Below, in pieces: positions 3,342-32,464 of a DNA stretch of 32,464 nt. Both the position numbers and the translations under genes were made by a program. Numbering within the stretch: the stretch's first letter is position 1; each line of letters starts with the position of its first letter. The notes beneath the pieces were generated by a model, which saw only the letters and a list, made by a program, of their open reading frames with translations, made no database searches and had not been told where the DNA came from. The stretch is from Spirochaetaceae bacterium (GTDB lineage: Bacteria > Spirochaetota > Spirochaetia > Treponematales > Treponemataceae). The stretch lies in assembly GCA_017614995.1 (NCBI GenBank), contig JAGAAX010000058.1:1-32464 (forward strand), read 5' to 3'.

Positions 3342-4580
3342 ATGACACTTGATGTTTATTTTGGGAACAAACTTGCCGGTTTTTTGCAATCTACAGACAA
3401 CCGTGGTGTTGTTTTTTATTATGAAGAAAAATACATCGCAGATAAAAATGCAGTTCCGCTTTCTGCTTCACTTCCTCTTAGAAAAGAAGAATTCAGCCAA
3501 ATAGAAGCTATTCCTTTTTTTTCAGGTCTTTTGCCTGAAGAAGCTTCCCGTAAAAAAATTGCGGATTTTCTTCATATTTCAGAAACAAGCACATTCAAAC
3601 TGCTTGAGGCTTTGGGCGGAGAATGTGCTGGTCTTATAACAATCACAGCAAGCGGAAATCCAGACTTGCCAAAAGATACTTATTATTTCAATTCTGACAA
3701 TTATGAGCTGCTTGACGAAAATCGTTTGGCAGACTTTATAAAAAAAATGGACTTGCGTCCTCTTATGAAAGCTGATGACAAACTCCGACTTTCGCTTGCA
3801 GGAGCCCAAGAAAAGCTTGCGCTTGCCAAAATCGACAGCAAATGGTATTTGCCTTTGAACGGTGCACCGTCTACGCATATTCTGAAACCAACACGAAAAG
3901 GTTCTCTTTCTTCTCTTGCAATGAACGAATACATTTGCATGAAACTTGCAGCTAATCTTGGTTTGCCTGCACCGGACGTTGATTTAATTAATATTGCAGA
4001 CAGAGACGTTTTTGTAGTTGAGCGTTACGACAGAATAAAAAATAAAAGTTCAATCCAGCGGCTTCATCAGGAAGATTTTTGTCAGGCTATGGGGCTTATG
4101 AATACTTCAAAATATCAAAGCGACGGCGGTCCCGGAATTTTTGATATTTTTTCAGTCATAAAATCAAACTGCTCTGTACCAGCCCTAGAAATTCAAAAAT
4201 TTTTGAAATATATCGTTTTTAATTATTTAATCGGTAACTGTGACAGCCACGGAAAGAATTATTCAATACTTTACAGAAATAGAACAGTAGAACTAGCCCC
4301 TTTATATGATTCTGTTTCTACCTTGATTTATTCTGAACTTACAGAAAAACTTTCTATGAAAATCGGCAGTCATTATGAAATTCGAAAAGTTTCAAAATCA
4401 GATTTTTATAATCTTGCCCAATCTTTAAATATAAAACCGTTTGTAATTTCCAAATTATTCGAAGAATTCAAAAGAAACAGCTGCAAAGCGTTTGATGAAT
4501 TAAAAAACGACCCCAAAATTTCAAAAGAAGTTTTGGAAAAGATTATTTCTGTTTTTCAAGATTTGTGTATACACTTTTAA
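3342..4580 (+). CDS. hipA: HipA serine/threonine kinase toxin
   Basis: 412 residues, close to E. coli HipA (440). The N-terminal HipA_N domain (about 1-110) includes PLSASLPLRKEEF and FFSGLLPEE. The kinase body has LSLAGAQEKLALAK with Ser151 in the place of the E. coli autophosphorylation serine (Ser150). The catalytic loop is GNCDSHGKNYSIL (Asp301) and the metal-binding motif LAPLYDSVS (Asp323). All key residues are present, so the kinase is probably active. Known HipA proteins phosphorylate glutamyl-tRNA synthetase or related targets, halting translation and promoting persistence; the target here is not known. No terminator is obvious downstream, where remnants of other toxin-antitoxin genes begin. 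Confidence 0.92.
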   Translation: MTLDVYFGNKLAGFLQSTDNRGVVFYYEEKYIADKNAVPLSASLPLRKEEFSQIEAIPFFSGLLPEEASRKKIADFLHISETSTFKLLEALGGECAGLITITASGNPDLPKDTYYFNSDNYELLDENRLADFIKKMDLRPLMKADDKLRLSLAGAQEKLALAKIDSKWYLPLNGAPSTHILKPTRKGSLSSLAMNEYICMKLAANLGLPAPDVDLINIADRDVFVVERYDRIKNKSSIQRLHQEDFCQAMGLMNTSKYQSDGGPGIFDIFSVIKSNCSVPALEIQKFLKYIVFNYLIGNCDSHGKNYSILYRNRTVELAPLYDSVSTLIYSELTEKLSMKIGSHYEIRKVSKSDFYNLAQSLNIKPFVISKLFEEFKRNSCKAFDELKNDPKISKEVLEKIISVFQDLCIHF

Positions 4581-4966: not shown

Positions 4967-6301
4967 TCATAATAACATTGCCATGTAATATGGAATAGTA
5001 ATTCTGTTATCAGTAATACCAACATTGTTTTCAGAAAGCTTGTAGCAGACATCTACATCATACTGAGGGTTCTTCAGAACTGTATTTGCTGATTTTGTGT
5101 TTCCAGTTGTAGCTTTAACTTCGATAAGGGAGATTTCATTCTTTACCTTAGAAACAAAATCAATTTCAAGGCCGGAATCTTTATGGAAGTAATACAGTTT
5201 TCTGTCCTGTTTAGAAAAACAATCGGCTATGATATTTTCAAAGATTGCGCCTTTGTAAAATCCTAAATCACCGGAAAGAATTTTTGCTGCACTGTCGCGG
5301 TCAAGCATAGAAATAAAAAGACCCGAATCCTGCATGTAAATCTTAAAGACATTATCAATCTTATTTCCTTCAAGTGGATCAGAAATGCTTGTAAGATTGT
5401 AGCACAGATTTATGATTCCAAAATCACAGAGCCATTGAATTGCAGGAAGATAGTTTTCAGAACGTCCTTTTTTTTCAAGGCTGGAGAAAACGAACTTCTT
5501 ATTTTCTTTTGCAAGCTGAGCAGGAATAGATTCAAATACTCTGTTTATTCTTCCAAGAAGGGCAAGGTCAATTTCCTCGTTTTCATTTTCATCAAGATGC
5601 TTACCAAAGTCATCCCTGTATTCTTCAATAATATCATGCTGTTCCTGCCAGACAATATTCATATCATTTGTTGAAATAAATCTGTCAACGATGTACGGAA
5701 GCCCGCCAACGCAGATGTATTCCTTAAAGTATCTGAGCATTGCTGTATGTGTGGCTTCACTTACAGGAGTTTTGTTTTCATAACATTCACGAAGATAATT
5801 AATTACATCTTCGCCAATTCCTTTAGCCCAAAGGAACTCTTCAAAGTCCATTGGTTTCATGTAAAGTATGCGCTCAAAGCCAGTTGGAACACCTTTACTT
5901 TTTTTCTTGTTATAACCTTTAATTCCAAGAAGGGAACCTGTTGCGATTATGTCAAAGCGGCCGTCTTCGCAGAAAGGTTTTATACTTGAACGTGCATTTG
6001 CACATTCCTGAATCTCATCAAAAATGATTACTGTGTTGCCTGGTTCAAAATGAGAGCCAGGAATAATGGCAGAAAGGTCTATAATCATTCTATCTACATT
6101 CAGGTCTGCATCAAAAATCTTTTTTGCGTTTTCATTTTCCTTAAAGTTTACATATACGATGTTTTTATAGTTTGCTTTTGCAAATTCACATACACTGCAG
6201 GTCTTTCCAATCTGGCGAAGGCCTTTTACAACAAGAGCTTTCTTTTTTCCGCCTGTATTTTTCCAAGCTTCAAATTCAGACATAATTTTTCTTTTGAACA
6301 T
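4967..6301 (-). CDS. AAA ATPase with C-terminal DUF4143 domain (copy 1)
   Basis: An AAA_14/DUF4143 protein of about 444 residues. Near the N-terminus is the Walker A LVVKGLRQIGKTCS, then Walker B TVIIFDEIQEC and sensor-like DIIATGSLLG. The C-terminal DUF4143 half has LEIDFVSKVKNEISLIEVKA, an E-x-D...E-V-K arrangement reminiscent of PD-(D/E)xK nuclease folds. Such ATPases are numerous and mobile in spirochaetes and anaerobes; their role is undetermined. I prefer the ATG at 6301 (MFKRKIMSEF), 10-12 nt after CGAGG, over the GTG at 6331, which lies inside an upstream repeat. The nearest repeat begins 27 bp upstream of this ATG. A paralogue lies at 24669-25988. Confidence 0.88.
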   Translation of the reverse strand: MFKRKIMSEFEAWKNTGGKKKALVVKGLRQIGKTCSVCEFAKANYKNIVYVNFKENENAKKIFDADLNVDRMIIDLSAIIPGSHFEPGNTVIIFDEIQECANARSSIKPFCEDGRFDIIATGSLLGIKGYNKKKSKGVPTGFERILYMKPMDFEEFLWAKGIGEDVINYLRECYENKTPVSEATHTAMLRYFKEYICVGGLPYIVDRFISTNDMNIVWQEQHDIIEEYRDDFGKHLDENENEEIDLALLGRINRVFESIPAQLAKENKKFVFSSLEKKGRSENYLPAIQWLCDFGIINLCYNLTSISDPLEGNKIDNVFKIYMQDSGLFISMLDRDSAAKILSGDLGFYKGAIFENIIADCFSKQDRKLYYFHKDSGLEIDFVSKVKNEISLIEVKATTGNTKSANTVLKNPQYDVDVCYKLSENNVGITDNRITIPYYMAMLL

Positions 6302-6327
6302 AAAAAACCTCGTATTTCCAGTACGTC

Positions 6328-6418
6328 GCACTTTTTCAATGGAGTTTTTATCACTTTACTGCACTTTTTCAAGCGACTTTTCACTTAAAGAATACACTTT
6401 TTCAAACGACTTTTTCAA
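6328..6418 (-). repeat. 33-bp-spaced direct repeats upstream of ATPase copy 1
   Basis: On the plus strand GCACTTTTTCAA occurs at 6328 and 6361 and ACACTTTTTCAA at 6394, exactly 33 bp apart each time; a fourth CGACTTTTTCAA is at 6407. The first repeats are followed by related CGACTTTT(T)CA half-sites. On the transcribed strand the core is TTGAAAAAGTG. One TTGAAA copy with TATTCT 18 bp downstream could form a promoter. The array fills the gap between the ATPase gene and recO and could affect both. Confidence 0.75.
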
Positions 6419-24643: not shown

Positions 24644-24672
24644 ATTATAACCTTTTTTTCTGCTTACATCAA
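24644..24672 (-). promoter_or_regulatory. Promoter of smc operon
   Basis: On the minus strand TTGATG, a 17-bp spacer and a perfect TATAAT (24644-24649) lie about 40 bp before the smc GTG. The -35 overlaps the stop region of the upstream ATPase gene, so smc can be transcribed independently of it. Confidence 0.65.
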
Positions 24673-25988
24673 CCCAGCAAAGAAGCTGCCGTACCGGTTG
24701 GCAGTCTCTTAATTTGACCTGCTAAATAAAGAGGAACATTTATCATGTTTTCCTGCTTTTTATACTCAAGAGTAGAAAATCTGATGGCAATTTCCGGATT
24801 ATTTTCCCTTCTGAATCTTTTAAAACTTGCAGACGTTACGTTTCCACCAGCTTTGCACTCTACAGGAATAATCTGCATTCCGTTCTGCAATAAAAAATCA
24901 ACTTCATAATTTCTGACTGGAGAATAATAATGAGGAGCTGCATCAAAAAGGGTACGGAGCTGCTGTACAGTGTAATTTTCTGTAAGAGCTCCTTTGAATT
25001 GAAAATCCTTGTTCAGAATAATTGCTTCATTTGTTACTTCGGCAGCACATTTTGCAAGCCCTACATCAAAATAAAACAGCTTAAAGCTTGATAAATCTTC
25101 AAAGGCTTTAAGCGGATGTTCCGGCTTTGTTACATCATAAATGCGAATCACCAGCCCTGCACTTACAAGCCATTCTATTGCTTCTTCAAATTCTCTTGCC
25201 CGAGCCCCCTTCTTTACACAACCATAAATAAATTTTTCGTTTTCTTTAGAAAGCTGGCTTACAAGACTTCTGAAAACAAGAAGAATTCTTCCTGCATTGA
25301 TTTTTCCGCTGTGTTTAGAAATATCATTTTCATACAGCTCTAACAGTTCTTTTTGCAGTTTAAGGACTATTCCTGTATTTTTTTCTGTCATCCATGAATA
25401 AACACAAGAAGGCATTCCGCCAATAATGAGATAATTTCTGTATTGCTCAATCAACTTATCATGCTGAATCTTTAATATTTCTTCTGGTGGCGTTTCAATC
25501 ATGTATTTATAAAGGCCTGGTGCCAAAGCATTTAAAAATTCTTCAAAATCCATTGGATAAATATTTAAAAGGTTTACTTTTCCAACAGGAAAACTCATTG
25601 GCTGAGCCAGAAGCGTTCCCAATAAACTGCCGGCTGCAATGACATGATATTGATTTGCTTCTTCATTAAAATACTTCAGCGTATTAAGTGCTTCCGGACA
25701 TTCCTGTATTTCATCAAAAACAATTAAATGCTCTTCTGGAAGTATTTTATCTTCTCTAATTGAACCTAAATTTTCAATAATTCTGTAAGGGTCTTTATTT
25801 ACCTTAAAAATTTCGTGAAGGGACTCTTCTTTATCAAAAGAAAAATAGAATGTTTTTTTATAATATTCTTTACCAAATTCTTTCATAAGCCAGGTTTTTC
25901 CAACCTGTCTTGCCCCTTTTAGTATCAAGGGTTTTCTTCCTGATGAGACTTTCCATTCTTTTAATTCGTCTAATGCTTTACGGTACAT
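24669..25988 (-). CDS. AAA ATPase with C-terminal DUF4143 domain (copy 2)
   Basis: 439 residues, same architecture as the protein at 4967-6301 but clearly diverged. Walker A is LILKGARQVGKTWL (about 22-35) and Walker B is HLIVFDEIQECPEA, then HVIAAGSLLG. The segment VGKVNLLNIYPMDFEEFLNA is shared by the family, and the DUF4143 C-terminus has YEVDFLLQNGMQIIPVECKA (E-x-D...E-C-K, nuclease-like). ATG 25988 was chosen as start; a TAGAAT box lies on the same strand just upstream (about 25999-26004). The first of a set of 33-bp-spaced repeats begins 25 bp before this ATG. Function of the family is unsettled; defence or mobile-element roles have been suspected. Confidence 0.88.
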   Translation of the reverse strand: MYRKALDELKEWKVSSGRKPLILKGARQVGKTWLMKEFGKEYYKKTFYFSFDKEESLHEIFKVNKDPYRIIENLGSIREDKILPEEHLIVFDEIQECPEALNTLKYFNEEANQYHVIAAGSLLGTLLAQPMSFPVGKVNLLNIYPMDFEEFLNALAPGLYKYMIETPPEEILKIQHDKLIEQYRNYLIIGGMPSCVYSWMTEKNTGIVLKLQKELLELYENDISKHSGKINAGRILLVFRSLVSQLSKENEKFIYGCVKKGARAREFEEAIEWLVSAGLVIRIYDVTKPEHPLKAFEDLSSFKLFYFDVGLAKCAAEVTNEAIILNKDFQFKGALTENYTVQQLRTLFDAAPHYYSPVRNYEVDFLLQNGMQIIPVECKAGGNVTSASFKRFRRENNPEIAIRFSTLEYKKQENMINVPLYLAGQIKRLPTGTAASLLG

Positions 25989-27872: not shown

Positions 27873-27993
27873 ATTGTTTTTCCATCCTCAATATATTTTC
27901 CTTGTATAATTTTTCAATATTACAAGTCTTGTTTCGTCTGCCGTATTTGTCGGTTACGAAAACAATGTCGTGAAGGTCAGCAGTCTGAATCAT
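27823..27993 (-). CDS. Short 56-codon frame bridging two genes (uncertain)
   Basis: An ATG at 27993, within the last codons of the methylase-like gene, opens a frame that reads MIQTADLHDIVFVTDKYGRR, continues NKTCNIEKLYKENILRMEKQ, and ends at a TGA (27823-27825) inside the AlbA_2 gene. DIVFVTDKYGR looks like protein rather than chance sequence, and the frame overlaps both neighbours, which would couple their translation. It may be a real small protein, or the N-terminal stub of a gene lost when the AlbA_2 gene arrived. No clear ribosome site. Confidence 0.35.
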   Translation of the reverse strand: MIQTADLHDIVFVTDKYGRRNKTCNIEKLYKENILRMEKQYAKSRTVNKRTYKTSQ

Positions 27994-29713
27994 CTTTTAT
28001 ATCTTTCTTGTACTTTAATACAGCTATTAATTTATTCCGAATCAAATCCGTACTTGGTGTGATATCTGTCTGTTCTATCAGTCGTGGGTGTGCACAATCA
28101 TTTCTTAATTTATTAATATTATTAAAATTTTCTAAGAAACCAAGTGTAAAGAATACATCATCAAAAGAGTTTCTTAGGTAAGTCTTATAATCATTTATCA
28201 CCTGATGTTTACAATCTTTCTCAAGTGTCAATTCCAAAATAAACTTCATCTTACCAATTTCAAGTTTCCATCTATCCGGTTTATTCTTATTTTTCTTACA
28301 AAATTTCAAAAACTCAATAAATATATTTACCGTAGTCTCTTCTGGAGTTAAAGCTGAATTATCTGTGACTTCAATTTTTGAAGGAATTTCATAATCATTT
28401 TTGATAACAAAATCTGCGTAGTCTTTGAACATCTTCATAAATAGTTCTCGTTCAAAGCTCTTACAGTATTCAATTAAGACTGGAGCCATATCGGCTTTAG
28501 AAGAAAGACCTAGTTGTTCTGCCAATAAAATTCCAGTAGGAATAAAACTTTGAGATTCAATTTCTAGCTTATTCCAATATGGATTTATCCATTCCTTCGC
28601 TGCTTCCTGATATGATTCATAATCGTAGTTTCGTTGAATAATTGTTTTATGTATCTTATCTAAAACAGTTTCAATATCTTCTTCTGTGTTAGCATTAAGT
28701 CCCATGGTTTCCTGTATAGAATGAATATCATCCACAAGTCTTTTCATCTCTTCTTTCATTCGGTTTATATCACCAGGTCCAGCTACAATTTCAGAATATT
28801 CAATTGAATTTTTCAACTCAGCAATCTGTTCTCTTATTACATAGGCATCTTTGGGAATTCGTTCAAAATTTTTGTCGAACCAAACTGTTTCAACATTTGT
28901 TTTTGCTGAAATCCAATTAATACCATAATTATTACAAAAACGAGAAAAACAACCATCAATTTCAAAAGGACAGAATACTAGAGCATTCTCTTCAAAAAAG
29001 AGTTCCGCTAATCTGTTTAAAACTAAATCTGATAAAAATCCTGTAGTTTGTATGTTCTTCCAGATATTTGAAACAGGAACTTTAGATTCATTCCAATAGA
29101 CTTTTTGATACCATTTTTTATTTTTAAGGACTAGACGATTATCTGAAAATAATTCACATCTCTTTTCAAGACTATATCTCCAAACCTTACCAGATTCTGG
29201 TGTAATACCCATCCATTCTGCTTTATCGTGTCCCACTCGCTCAGGCATAGTCATTGGTATTAATCTATAATAATCAATCTCATCTTTTTCTATATAAGAA
29301 TCTTTTGGTGCTAACTCAAATAAAGGCTTTAGTTCATAGTCTGGATTACTCGAACAAAAATACAAATAATCGATATTGTTTTTTGTTATTGCTCTAGTAG
29401 GTCTTTCAAGTGTAATTTCATAAACAAAAGGAAAAAGCTGATCCAAAAGAAGTTTGTAATTACAGTCTTTCATTCCATTACTAGGAACAAGGATAGAACC
29501 TGCTTTACTATCTTTTAAGATTCTTTTTGTATTTTCAAAAACCTTTTTTATATATTCAATATATTCCTGGCTCTGTTCTTGTTCATTCTGATTACTAAGA
29601 AAATCAAAACGTGTATTGTACGGAGGATTAATAAAGATGAAATCAAAGGACTTATCTCTCTGTAGTTCCATAAGTTTGAGGTTATCAATATTTTTGTACA
29701 ATACATTTCTCAT
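27977..29713 (-). CDS. Methyltransferase-like protein with C-terminal HEPN-type domain
   Basis: 578 residues from ATG 29713 (GGAG 10 nt upstream); a TTG two codons earlier is possible. Near the N-terminus, DNLKLMELQ...FDFIFINPPYNTRFDF resembles the catalytic motif IV of beta-class (type III Mod-like) adenine methyltransferases (D/NPPY). The matching SAM motif, normally DPFxGSGTT, reads CPFEIDGCFS (about 248-257), so cofactor binding is doubtful. After a helical linker, the last 200 residues contain APVLIEYCKSFERELFMKMF and KLRNDCAHPRL; Arg537 and His542 fit the HEPN RNxxxH (Rx4H) motif. The N-terminal domain found ahead of motif IV in type III Mod is missing. Probably a defence component acting with the PHP-SMC protein. 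Confidence 0.75.
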   Translation of the reverse strand: MRNVLYKNIDNLKLMELQRDKSFDFIFINPPYNTRFDFLSNQNEQEQSQEYIEYIKKVFENTKRILKDSKAGSILVPSNGMKDCNYKLLLDQLFPFVYEITLERPTRAITKNNIDYLYFCSSNPDYELKPLFELAPKDSYIEKDEIDYYRLIPMTMPERVGHDKAEWMGITPESGKVWRYSLEKRCELFSDNRLVLKNKKWYQKVYWNESKVPVSNIWKNIQTTGFLSDLVLNRLAELFFEENALVFCPFEIDGCFSRFCNNYGINWISAKTNVETVWFDKNFERIPKDAYVIREQIAELKNSIEYSEIVAGPGDINRMKEEMKRLVDDIHSIQETMGLNANTEEDIETVLDKIHKTIIQRNYDYESYQEAAKEWINPYWNKLEIESQSFIPTGILLAEQLGLSSKADMAPVLIEYCKSFERELFMKMFKDYADFVIKNDYEIPSKIEVTDNSALTPEETTVNIFIEFLKFCKKNKNKPDRWKLEIGKMKFILELTLEKDCKHQVINDYKTYLRNSFDDVFFTLGFLENFNNINKLRNDCAHPRLIEQTDITPSTDLIRNKLIAVLKYKKDIKDDSDC

Positions 29714-29720
29714 TCCCAAA

Positions 29721-29804
29721 TCACTCCTCTACTATAAGTAAATCAATCTGAAGCATTTCTTCTAGACCTTTTCTCTGAATATTTTTAGTTTGTCGTATAT
29801 CCAT
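29721..29804 (-). CDS. Possible 27-codon leader frame between PHP and Mod-like genes
   Basis: An ATG at 29804 inside the last codons of the PHP-SMC gene opens MDIRQTKNIQRKGLEEMLQI followed by DLLIVEE, and stops at TGA 29721-29723, which abuts the start region of the next gene; the GAGGAG ribosome site lies in its last codons. It could be a coupling leader peptide or the relic of a lost N-terminus. No strong ribosome site. Confidence 0.25.
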   Translation of the reverse strand: MDIRQTKNIQRKGLEEMLQIDLLIVEE

Positions 29805-32406
29805 ATTTCTTTTCGCGAATTTGGAAAGCAGTATTTCCTCCTTCAAGAATTTCACAAATATGTTCTCTTATACCCTTAGACAATAATATTGTTTCACAAT
29901 TTTTGTCTTCAAAAGTATCCTCTATACTATTTCCATAGTATTCAAATTTTAGGTTATCCTGATTTTTATTATCTAATCCGTTTTGATTAGCAACAATAAC
30001 AAGTTCTGCATCAGCACCAACAACCACATTTGGATTGTGTGTAGCAAGAATTATTTGTCTGTTTTTTTTCTGCTTTCGTAGATATTCAACTAACTTATCA
30101 TAGATTGCTCTGTTATCGAGGTCATCTTCTGGCTGGTCTATAATAATAGGACACTTACTATCATCAAAATCAAGAAGTAATCTCAATGCAATAAAAGCTT
30201 TTTTTCCTTCTGACATTGTCTCAAAGCTGTCTCCATCAAATGTTACATCATAAGACAATTTATAATAATTATTTGAAAATAGATTTATTAAAGTTTGTCT
30301 GAGGTCTTTCTTCAATGGCAGTTTTCCATTTACTATACCGTCAAATATTTCTTTTACCCACTTTAATCTTTCTTCTGAGTTTTTATCTTCGAAAGTATCA
30401 TATTTTTTTACACTTTTTTCTTTCCTGTTCAAAGCTTCAAGTGCATTTTCAAAGAAATCCTTATACAAAAAAGTTGACTTAGTTTTTATTTCTACTTCAT
30501 CTTTTTGAATTGATAAAAAATCTGCTAATATTTGGGTGTTTGTACTATATTTCTCAAATAATTTCCAAAGGTTTTCAATGCAATTCTTCTTTGCACTATT
30601 TAATTCTCTTATTTCTTGTTCGAGTTTTTCTATTTTGTATTTTTTTTCTTTTTCTTCCTTAAGAGTCTTTTCTTTATTAGATAATTGTTCATTACTAGTC
30701 TGAAAAGATTCCCCTCTTTTGTATAAATCAGAATTAGTAATATCGCTTAACTTATCTGTAGTTGCTTTGCTTTCTTGATTTTTTAATTCGATTTGATTAG
30801 TAACGAATGCTTTCCATTTTTCTTTTGTTTCAGTTTTTAATGATTCATAGAATTGAGTTATTTGTTCTTTTGTTGATGATGAAAAACTTGAAAGTAAAGA
30901 ATCTATCGAAACAAATAGTTCTGTGTCCATAGCGATATTTAATTGGTCGACATCAGATCTTAATAACCTGACTTTTTGTTCTTCTTTTACTACTTGTTCC
31001 TTGTTTCTCTTATACTTTTTATCTTCATCTTCAGTTAAATATCCAACTATAGACTTCTTTATGCTATCTATTTCGTTTTGTATTTTTTCAATTTCAATGA
31101 TAATACCAGCCTTATTACCTATATCCGCGATTTGATTATTTTTTTCATCAATCTGATTTTGAAGCTCTGTATAATCATTAATTTTTGTATTTATTTCTGT
31201 TCTATTAGCTCCCATAACAGAATCGTATTTCTGTAGTTCTGGAGATTTATCGGTATCTTTTTTAATTATATCTTGAACTAATTCATTTATACCTGAAATA
31301 CCATATTCGTCAGGACGCACTCTTTCACTAATAGATGATTGAGAATAATAAATAATTTTTCTTGTTTTGGTTGTATTATCACGCCAAGTTACTGTGGCAT
31401 CCTTATTTATTTTTTTTACAAGAGAATTATATTTCTCATTATAGGAAGTATCTTCTTTTGCATTTAATGTTTTATCTATAGTTGTTGCTAAACAACCAAG
31501 TAAAATTGATTTTCCGGAAGAACGTCCTCCAATAATAGTATTTAGATTTTGATTAAAAATAATCTTCTGGTTTCCCATTACTGAATTATTAAATTCAATG
31601 GAATCGATTATCTGATAATCATTCTTTGGTTCTGGTTTGTCTGATTGGACCCTTACTCTATCATCTGGTTCATAAATAATTTGTTTTAAACCTTCAAATG
31701 TTAGATTAGATTTTATCCAACAATTTTGCCTTACTTCATAATTCTTTATATCATGATTATCAGAACAGATTATAATTGGAAGCTTTTTCCCGATTGATTT
31801 TTCTATGGCAGGATTGACATATTTCTTATAATCATTAACATCCTTTTCTTTTGCAACTTCAAATACATCAACAATTCCTGCAATATCATTTTTTTGTGCA
31901 TCACCCTGCGGAATAGTATGTGGGATAGTTTCCATAGAATTACTCTTATGTCCGGCATGTATAGTTACAATTCCACCCAATTCATGTATTAATTTAACTG
32001 TGTCTGGCAAAACGCAATAAACTTCATTTTCTTTTTTGTGTTCTCCCTGAATTTTACTTATATTTGTTTTCGCTTGTAATTGTGACCAAATATACTCTAG
32101 ATTTCCCTCTGGAGAAAAAATTCCAATAATATGTATTGGTTCGCTACCTCTTGCATCTGATAAAATTTCAATTCCTGGAAAAACAACCATATCTTTTTCT
32201 TTTGTAATTTTTTGAATAGACCTAATTCTTTCGATATCAATAATATGATGGTCTGTTATAGCTATGGCAGATATATTATTGTCTGCTAATTTATTGATAA
32301 ATTCTTCGTTTGATACAGTTTTATCTTTATAATCATAAGATGAAGGTGTATGTATATGTAAATCCCATTTTCTCCATTCAGAACCACGTGTACTTTTATT
32401 ATTCAT
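29785..32406 (-). CDS. PHP-domain / SMC-like AAA (ABC-type) ATPase, TrlF-like
   Basis: 873 residues from ATG 32406, which has GGAG 7 nt upstream; the ATG at 32430 has none. The N-terminal PHP domain has all four metal-site motifs: DLHIHT (His17, His19), AITDHH (Asp52, His53) with FPGIEI (Glu80), GIVTIHAGH (His150) and IICSDNHD (Asp216, His218). It should therefore bind metals and hydrolyse a phosphoester. The ATPase has Walker A IIGGRSSGKS (Lys299), about 300 residues of coiled coil, the signature FETMSEGKKAFIALRLLLDF, Walker B PIIIDQPEDDLDN (Asp757) and ATHNPNVVVG. The combination resembles TrlF-family PHP-SMC proteins found in accessory islands. Heads the right-hand operon. Confidence 0.88.
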   Translation of the reverse strand: MNNKSTRGSEWRKWDLHIHTPSSYDYKDKTVSNEEFINKLADNNISAIAITDHHIIDIERIRSIQKITKEKDMVVFPGIEILSDARGSEPIHIIGIFSPEGNLEYIWSQLQAKTNISKIQGEHKKENEVYCVLPDTVKLIHELGGIVTIHAGHKSNSMETIPHTIPQGDAQKNDIAGIVDVFEVAKEKDVNDYKKYVNPAIEKSIGKKLPIIICSDNHDIKNYEVRQNCWIKSNLTFEGLKQIIYEPDDRVRVQSDKPEPKNDYQIIDSIEFNNSVMGNQKIIFNQNLNTIIGGRSSGKSILLGCLATTIDKTLNAKEDTSYNEKYNSLVKKINKDATVTWRDNTTKTRKIIYYSQSSISERVRPDEYGISGINELVQDIIKKDTDKSPELQKYDSVMGANRTEINTKINDYTELQNQIDEKNNQIADIGNKAGIIIEIEKIQNEIDSIKKSIVGYLTEDEDKKYKRNKEQVVKEEQKVRLLRSDVDQLNIAMDTELFVSIDSLLSSFSSSTKEQITQFYESLKTETKEKWKAFVTNQIELKNQESKATTDKLSDITNSDLYKRGESFQTSNEQLSNKEKTLKEEKEKKYKIEKLEQEIRELNSAKKNCIENLWKLFEKYSTNTQILADFLSIQKDEVEIKTKSTFLYKDFFENALEALNRKEKSVKKYDTFEDKNSEERLKWVKEIFDGIVNGKLPLKKDLRQTLINLFSNNYYKLSYDVTFDGDSFETMSEGKKAFIALRLLLDFDDSKCPIIIDQPEDDLDNRAIYDKLVEYLRKQKKNRQIILATHNPNVVVGADAELVIVANQNGLDNKNQDNLKFEYYGNSIEDTFEDKNCETILLSKGIREHICEILEGGNTAFQIREKKYGYTTN

Positions 32407-32464
32407 TTTTAAGCTCCATTTTTTATGCATTATTTTTTATTTATTTTGTTTAAATTTACCCTTC
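32407..32464 (-). promoter_or_regulatory. Start region of the PHP operon
   Basis: Only 58 bp upstream of the PHP start are in the window. They contain the Shine-Dalgarno GGAG and an A/T-rich run; any promoter is at or beyond the edge. Confidence 0.25.

Follow-up and report, generated by a model that had tools for sequence, protein, structure and literature searches.

The window analysed here, a stretch of 32,464 nucleotides that is one entire contig from a 3.0 Mb draft genome, ends in a cluster of three genes, the second of which (gene 2) joins a degenerate type III Mod-like methylase, a coiled coil and a predicted HEPN-type ribonuclease domain in a single protein. Our preferred reading, held with moderate confidence, is that gene 2 is a sensor-ribonuclease that has arisen from an R-M enzyme and that resides in an acquired cluster together with a separately acting TrlF protein and a Schlafen effector. 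TrlF is already known; what appears to be new is the methylase-HEPN fusion, which seems to exist in the window and in one other genome (G967), the methylase being apparently dead in both. Two further genomes have a separate HEPN-type gene whose neighbour encodes a TRD protein in which the methylase is degraded or absent. The sequences themselves give the domain make-up of gene 2, the loss of its motif I, the conserved RNxxxH family, its recurrent association with degraded methylase/TRD proteins, and the lack of a fixed link to TrlF.

Organization of the locus

The genes for TrlF (gene 1), for the fusion protein (gene 2) and for a Schlafen/HATPase protein (gene 3) form a co-directional minus-strand trio at the contig end (Table 1). 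The contig stops at position 32464, about 60 bases upstream of the TrlF gene start, and anything beyond is off the contig. The original prediction had described genes 1 and 2 as two adjacent minus-strand genes whose parts are each typical of conflict systems; both ORFs proved intact, with a spacing of about 70 bases, and the description of their parts was upheld. It had overlooked gene 3, the degenerate SAM motif of gene 2 and the nearby end of the contig. A GGAG ribosome-binding site precedes the ATG of gene 1, and the likeliest start of gene 2 is the ATG located ten bases past a GAGGAG, a TTG at 29719 being less likely. No terminator-like site was detected on the coding strand of the cluster, and none between genes 1 and 2, and the promoter-like site seen immediately upstream of the third gene is of a kind no commoner here than in shuffled sequence. 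The small ORF overlapping the end of gene 2 may be no gene at all, and a search for its relatives returned none. The GC content is 28.6% in the TrlF gene, 30.3% in gene 2 and 34.6% in the Schlafen/HATPase gene, against 43-47% in recJ, ligA and smc of the same window. Because of this low GC relative to core genes the three-gene cluster looks horizontally acquired, and its composition points to an acquired defence island.

Elsewhere in the window there are a HipA-like kinase gene (3342-4580), a separate HTH gene on the other strand (440-769), two minus-strand AAA_14/DUF4143 ATPase genes (4967-6331 and 24669-25988), and two predicted lipoproteins made of EYDxxGNxIHxK repeats (1002-2994), the first of which is overlain by a long antisense ORF that is probably a repeat artefact. 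The contig start (1-291) carries a fragment resembling, by eye, an IS110-type transposase at its 3' end.

Table 1. Positions of the genes and motifs discussed in the text (window coordinates).
Feature	Position	Strand	Basis or remark
Gene 1, TrlF family PHP + ABC/SMC ATPase, 873 aa	29785..32406	-	NF045780 match, motifs, alignment
PHP motif 1 DLHIHTPSS (H17, H19)	32338..32364	-	
Walker A GGRSSGKS (residues 293-300)	31507..31530	-	
Walker B CPIIIDQPEDDLDN (also given as IIIDQPEDDLD)	30112..30153	-	
Gene 2, degenerate (probably dead) Mod-like methylase + coiled coil + predicted C-terminal HEPN-type domain, 578 aa	27977..29713	-	PF01555, alignments
Methylase motif IV FIFINPPYNT, kept	29612..29641	-	Alignment
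Degenerate SAM motif I NALVFCPFEIDGCF	28946..28987	-	Relatives have LVLDPFxGSGTT
Predicted HEPN upstream acidic motif SFERELFMK (Ex3K)	28433..28459	-	
Predicted HEPN active-site motif KLRNDCAH (RNxxxH); RNDCAH = residues 537-542	28088..28111	-	R, N, H invariant in family
Possible small ORF, 56 codons	27826..27993	-	Overlaps gene 2 end and Schlafen gene start
Gene 3, Schlafen/AlbA_2 + HATPase_c_4 protein, 482 aa	26424..27872	-	Pfam

The Mod-like half of gene 2

The earlier designation of gene 2 as a Mod-like protein stands insofar as the protein matches PF01555 (N6_N4_Mtase, E 3.5e-7) and has kept motif IV, but the SAM motif is degenerate. In an alignment with plasmid methylases, LVLDPFxGSGTT is replaced by LVFCPFEIDGCF, the DPFxGSG of the SAM-binding motif having become CPFEIDG, and after the next strand WIGxDxS has become WISAKTN, with the acidic residue for the SAM ribose gone. 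Among methylase relatives from the same bacterial family DPPY is present in 26/26 and FxGSG in 24/26. Of the two elements used to define a type III Mod, FxGxG plus a DPPY-type motif, gene 2 thus has the second, as NPPY, and has lost the first. Since both motif I and the SAM-ribose acidic residue are lost, SAM binding by gene 2 is unlikely, and on these motifs its Mod-like half is probably a dead methylase. One could still suppose that gene 2 methylates by means of an unusual SAM-binding loop and that its HEPN-type domain is an ordinary toxin held in check by methylation, as the retained motif IV NPPY and fold core would allow; with FxGxG missing where 24 of 26 relatives have it, and the SAM-ribose acidic residue also gone, we regard this as very improbable.

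Close full-length relatives of gene 2 were not found by a pattern scan of genome contigs and viral contigs, nor was any such relative found among 296 sampled genomes of the phylum at E 1e-10. Plasmids gave matches to the methylase domain only and phages gave none, and the search of 274 genomes of the family returned methylase-domain matches, one relative of the C-terminus and nothing else. The Mod-HEPN fusion is a singleton across everything searched, and a literature search, outside which most subscription papers fell, found it nowhere described.

The C-terminal domain of gene 2

The presence of an RNxxxH motif is in itself weak evidence, because it is as frequent in shuffled ORFs: it occurs in the last 150 residues of 11/911 ORFs and of 10/911 shuffled ones. 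The first relative of the gene 2 C-terminus was a 305-aa protein from the same bacterial family (genome G354), with RNPSAH near its end, and a profile then retrieved members in other phyla. About a dozen relatives of this coiled-coil/RNxxxH family were found, spread over Spirochaetota, Bacteroidota and Bacillota plus a single phage contig; the plasmid and phage searches yielded none, and neither did 239 genomes of Pseudidiomarina's phylum, a set that came without a positive control. In an alignment of eight members with about 20% identity, eight residues are invariant, including the R, N and H of the motif and an upstream acidic pair; R, N, H and the upstream acidic residue are also kept in TPR-like forms of the family, and the histidine is lost in two family members. 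Being conserved in eight aligned homologues at such low identity, the RNDCAH motif of gene 2 is above chance, and the HEPN-type motif claimed for the C-terminus in the original prediction was thus corroborated by comparison with relatives.

The HEPN signature consists of Rx4-6H, with a polar residue (N) after the R, and Ex3[KR] (PMC3710099), and RNDCAH together with ERELFMK of gene 2 fits it. Curated HEPN profiles matched below threshold only (HEPN_RiboL-PSP, 0.0087 to 0.034; HEPN_Swt1, 0.062; Pfam), and sequence searches of the PDB gave nothing useful. AlphaFold models were poor, with a pLDDT of 36 without relatives and of 47, all-helical, with one relative, and Foldseek with the model of pLDDT 47 as query found no match, so that the HEPN fold is putative. 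From the motifs and their conservation we infer a HEPN-type ribonuclease domain at the C-terminus of gene 2.

Partners of the RNxxxH domain

The partners of the RNxxxH domain are ATPases, a helicase and TPRs; in four cases, of which the window is one, they are methylase/TRD proteins. The nearest relative of the gene 2 C-terminus (E 1e-12) is the fusion in G967, a single protein of 763 aa (L183:7891-10182) made up of an HsdM-like part, a TRD, a coiled coil and the RNxxxH domain, in which the methylase motif NPPF has changed to CLPF; it is followed by a DEAD-box helicase gene and an SNF2-like helicase gene. In G810, a TRD protein with only the back half of N6_Mtase and with an HsdR_N-type nuclease domain is encoded next to a separate RNxxxH gene, the pair lying beside a type I R-M system, and in G354 a TRD protein without a detectable methylase domain adjoins a separate RNxxxH gene. 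Other members are fused to AAA ATPases (two in G932), to an SF1 helicase (G100) or to TPR-like regions (G919 and G827, one beside a SIR2-like gene), or lie beside a McrC-like gene (G1053), the TPR-like, SIR2-like and McrC-like assignments being made by eye. The defence loci in which family members are found thus include type I R-M, McrC-like and SIR2-like genes and DEAD plus SNF2-like helicases.

A two-gene cassette, in which the gene of a TRD protein with a methylase remnant directly adjoins a coiled-coil RNxxxH gene, was seen in two phyla (L180:8209-10568 and L079:7797-10158); at least in the former, the TRD protein has a nuclease-like end, and the RNxxxH gene of the former has no PADLOC model. 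A coiled-coil TPR-like RNxxxH protein adjoins a SIR2-like gene at L178:421-3146. On the phage contig (L187:191-1297) a TPR-like RNxxxH gene immediately precedes the portal and capsid genes and is possibly a phage-borne defence gene.

All methylase parts found linked to the RNxxxH domain look methylation-dead, with lesions that differ between the cases. That the linked methylases all look dead is, with four cases, the strongest reason for preferring a sensor-effector to a decaying Mod as the reading of gene 2. A decaying type III Mod, its methylase half being a pseudogene in progress, would account for the loss of motif I, for the lack of known close relatives and for the fact that no Res gene was seen on the contig (the genome has 19 ResIII matches, none of them on this contig, on which the side upstream of TrlF is missing). 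We nevertheless judge such decay improbable: the 578 codons form an open frame, conservation of the C-terminal domain does not depend on Mod, and three other genomes pair this domain with degraded methylases belonging to another class.

TrlF and its neighborhoods

Gene 1 matches NF045780 (TrlF family AAA-like ATPase) with 564 bits, against a cut-off of 350, over its full length (residues 15-877 of the 881-aa ORF). Motif inspection confirmed that the PHP metal ligands and Walker motifs are all present, as had been claimed: the ligands H17/H19, D52/H53, E80, H150/H153 and D216/H218 are intact, and the ATPase part further has a signature-like MSEGKKA (731) and an H-loop ATHN. In 26/85 aligned TrlFs all six scored PHP positions are identical to those of the window protein. 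The Walker residues, E80 and D216 are nearly or fully invariant across the alignment, and H53, the histidine of the second motif, is a tyrosine in 47/85 (loci L090-L169); the PHP chemistry may differ between TrlF clades. The original prediction knew of no named system with this pair; gene 1 by itself belongs to a named family, and the pair of genes 1 and 2 did not recur at the other loci examined.

We surveyed 97 other TrlF loci, namely 80 from genome contigs, a sample skewed to close relatives of the window TrlF, 15 from the phylum and two from plasmids. Gene 2 occurred in the neighborhood of none of them (0/97); within 4 kb, type I R-M genes were present at 17/97 loci and a TrlG-like gene at 9/97. 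The nearest TrlFs, from Leeuwenhoekiella, Tenacibaculum, Flavobacterium and Pedobacter (Bacteroidota; 40-42% identity), are all solitary. Since the nearest TrlFs are solitary and none of the other loci surveyed carries gene 2, TrlF would act as an independent module here. The original prediction was of a dedicated two-gene system, and it had named rare adjacency of the partners' homologues as the outcome that would speak against it; that is the outcome the survey gave. Genes 1 and 2 could in principle form one two-component system, TrlF sensing infection via its ATPase and PHP domains and gene 2 supplying the toxic HEPN ribonuclease, and the shared strand, short spacing, comparably low GC and absence of a terminator-like site between them would agree with this. 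However, neither survey paired them: gene 2 is missing from the other TrlF loci, the nearest TrlFs stand alone, and TrlF is absent from all other HEPN-type-domain loci examined. Joint action is thus unlikely, and the two-gene system was dropped as the main model, neither partner recurring with the other.

The Schlafen/HATPase gene

TrlF was named in the Temperature Restricting Locus of Photorhabdus, where it stands beside TrlG, an AlbA_2/HATPase_c_4 protein (PMC7554251). In the window, gene 3 is one gene away from trlF and has the domains of TrlG, but apparently belongs to a different subfamily: it shares its architecture with trlG-like genes adjoining trlF at only about 24% identity, compared with 44-48% to plasmid homologues, one of them encoded in a type I R-M operon with HsdM and HsdS on either side. 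This subfamily mismatch weakened the exact Temperature Restricting Locus as a candidate. In that locus (trlR-trlF-trlG) a further gene, trlR, precedes trlF, at a place that in the window falls past the end of the contig. A variant of that locus into which gene 2 has been inserted, with TrlF and the AlbA/HATPase protein arresting growth jointly, would be in keeping with the Pfam domains of gene 3 being those found in the Photorhabdus locus (PMC7554251) and with a trlG-like gene lying directly after trlF in 7/15 loci of the phylum, but it too is unlikely, gene 3 being closer to proteins that are solitary or in R-M operons. Schlafen-histidine-kinase-like proteins have been described as a second line of effectors, kept as a backup, in BREX loci and their kin (PMC12839542), and gene 3 is probably an auxiliary effector of the same cluster as genes 1 and 2.

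Proposed mechanism

For gene 2 as a sensor-ribonuclease, we infer DNA sensing, RNase activity, an activation logic and a defence phenotype along the following lines. The type III Mod-like domain, unable to bind SAM or to methylate, would recognise DNA by sequence or modification state, and the coiled coil would relay the signal and thereby control the C-terminal HEPN ribonuclease. When DNA that is foreign or carries the wrong modification is encountered, the active site of the HEPN domain (Ex3K plus RNxxxH) would be released and RNA cut, and this cleavage may stop the infection through dormancy or cell death. TrlF probably acts alone, in the manner of Ppl, with its ATPase gating the PHP nuclease, so that TrlF and the Schlafen/HATPase protein would be parallel defences.

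More tentatively, and with the balance slightly against it, gene 2 may exemplify a recurring 'reader without writer' class, in which the DNA-recognition part of a methylase, having lost methylation several times over in independent events, triggers a fused or adjacent HEPN RNase; the window would represent a type III (Mod-derived) form and G967, G810 and G354 type I-derived forms. If this is true, wrong DNA would be answered by RNA cleavage and not by DNA cutting, and methylases could be converted to proteins that do nothing but read DNA and direct the cleavage of RNA.

Comparison with known systems

The window TrlF resembles the rest of its family in having a full-length PHP plus ABC ATPase arrangement with all key motifs kept, and differs in its Mod-HEPN companion, which is absent from the other TrlF loci examined. 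Gene 1 has a PHP domain on an SMC-like ATPase, as does the anti-phage protein Ppl, which is described as a one-gene system, a 3'-5' exonuclease of ssDNA that responds to NTP depletion and to 3' ends (PMC12904381); the similarity is partial and weak, the Ppl model NF042955 (cut-off 1000) giving 117.6 bits, and gene 1 is a distant relative of Ppl. Gene 3 has the same architecture as the Schlafen-HATPase proteins that serve R-M and BREX loci as auxiliary effectors, but adjoins a Mod-HEPN gene in a cluster with TrlF. The HsdM-like and TRD parts of G967, G810 and G354 are most similar to MAD2 or MAD5 of MADS (PADLOC), although they lie far below the NCBI cut-offs (59.9 bits versus 400 at best) and the HEPN gene of G810 matches no PADLOC model; gene 2, by contrast, is Mod-like and not HsdM-like, and the window protein has no MADS match.

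DndH, with its inactive DAM domain, likewise retains a methylase fold after loss of catalysis (PMC10853773) and offers, by analogy, a precedent for an inactive methylase in a defence protein, but it lacks HEPN, being an ATPase-nuclease, and the methylase domain in it comes from a different group. In the anticodon nucleases PrrC and RloC, control of the HEPN ribonuclease lies with an R-M system or with an ABC ATPase (PMC3710099), whereas the HEPN-type domain of gene 2 is fused to a methylase-derived module. According to the 2013 survey of HEPN domains, those linked to R-M systems have nucleases, helicases and ATPases as fusion partners, 'but not [...] the methylases' (PMC3710099). On its predicted domains, gene 2 would contradict the letter of this statement, but would fit its spirit, because DNA modification by the methylase has probably been lost.
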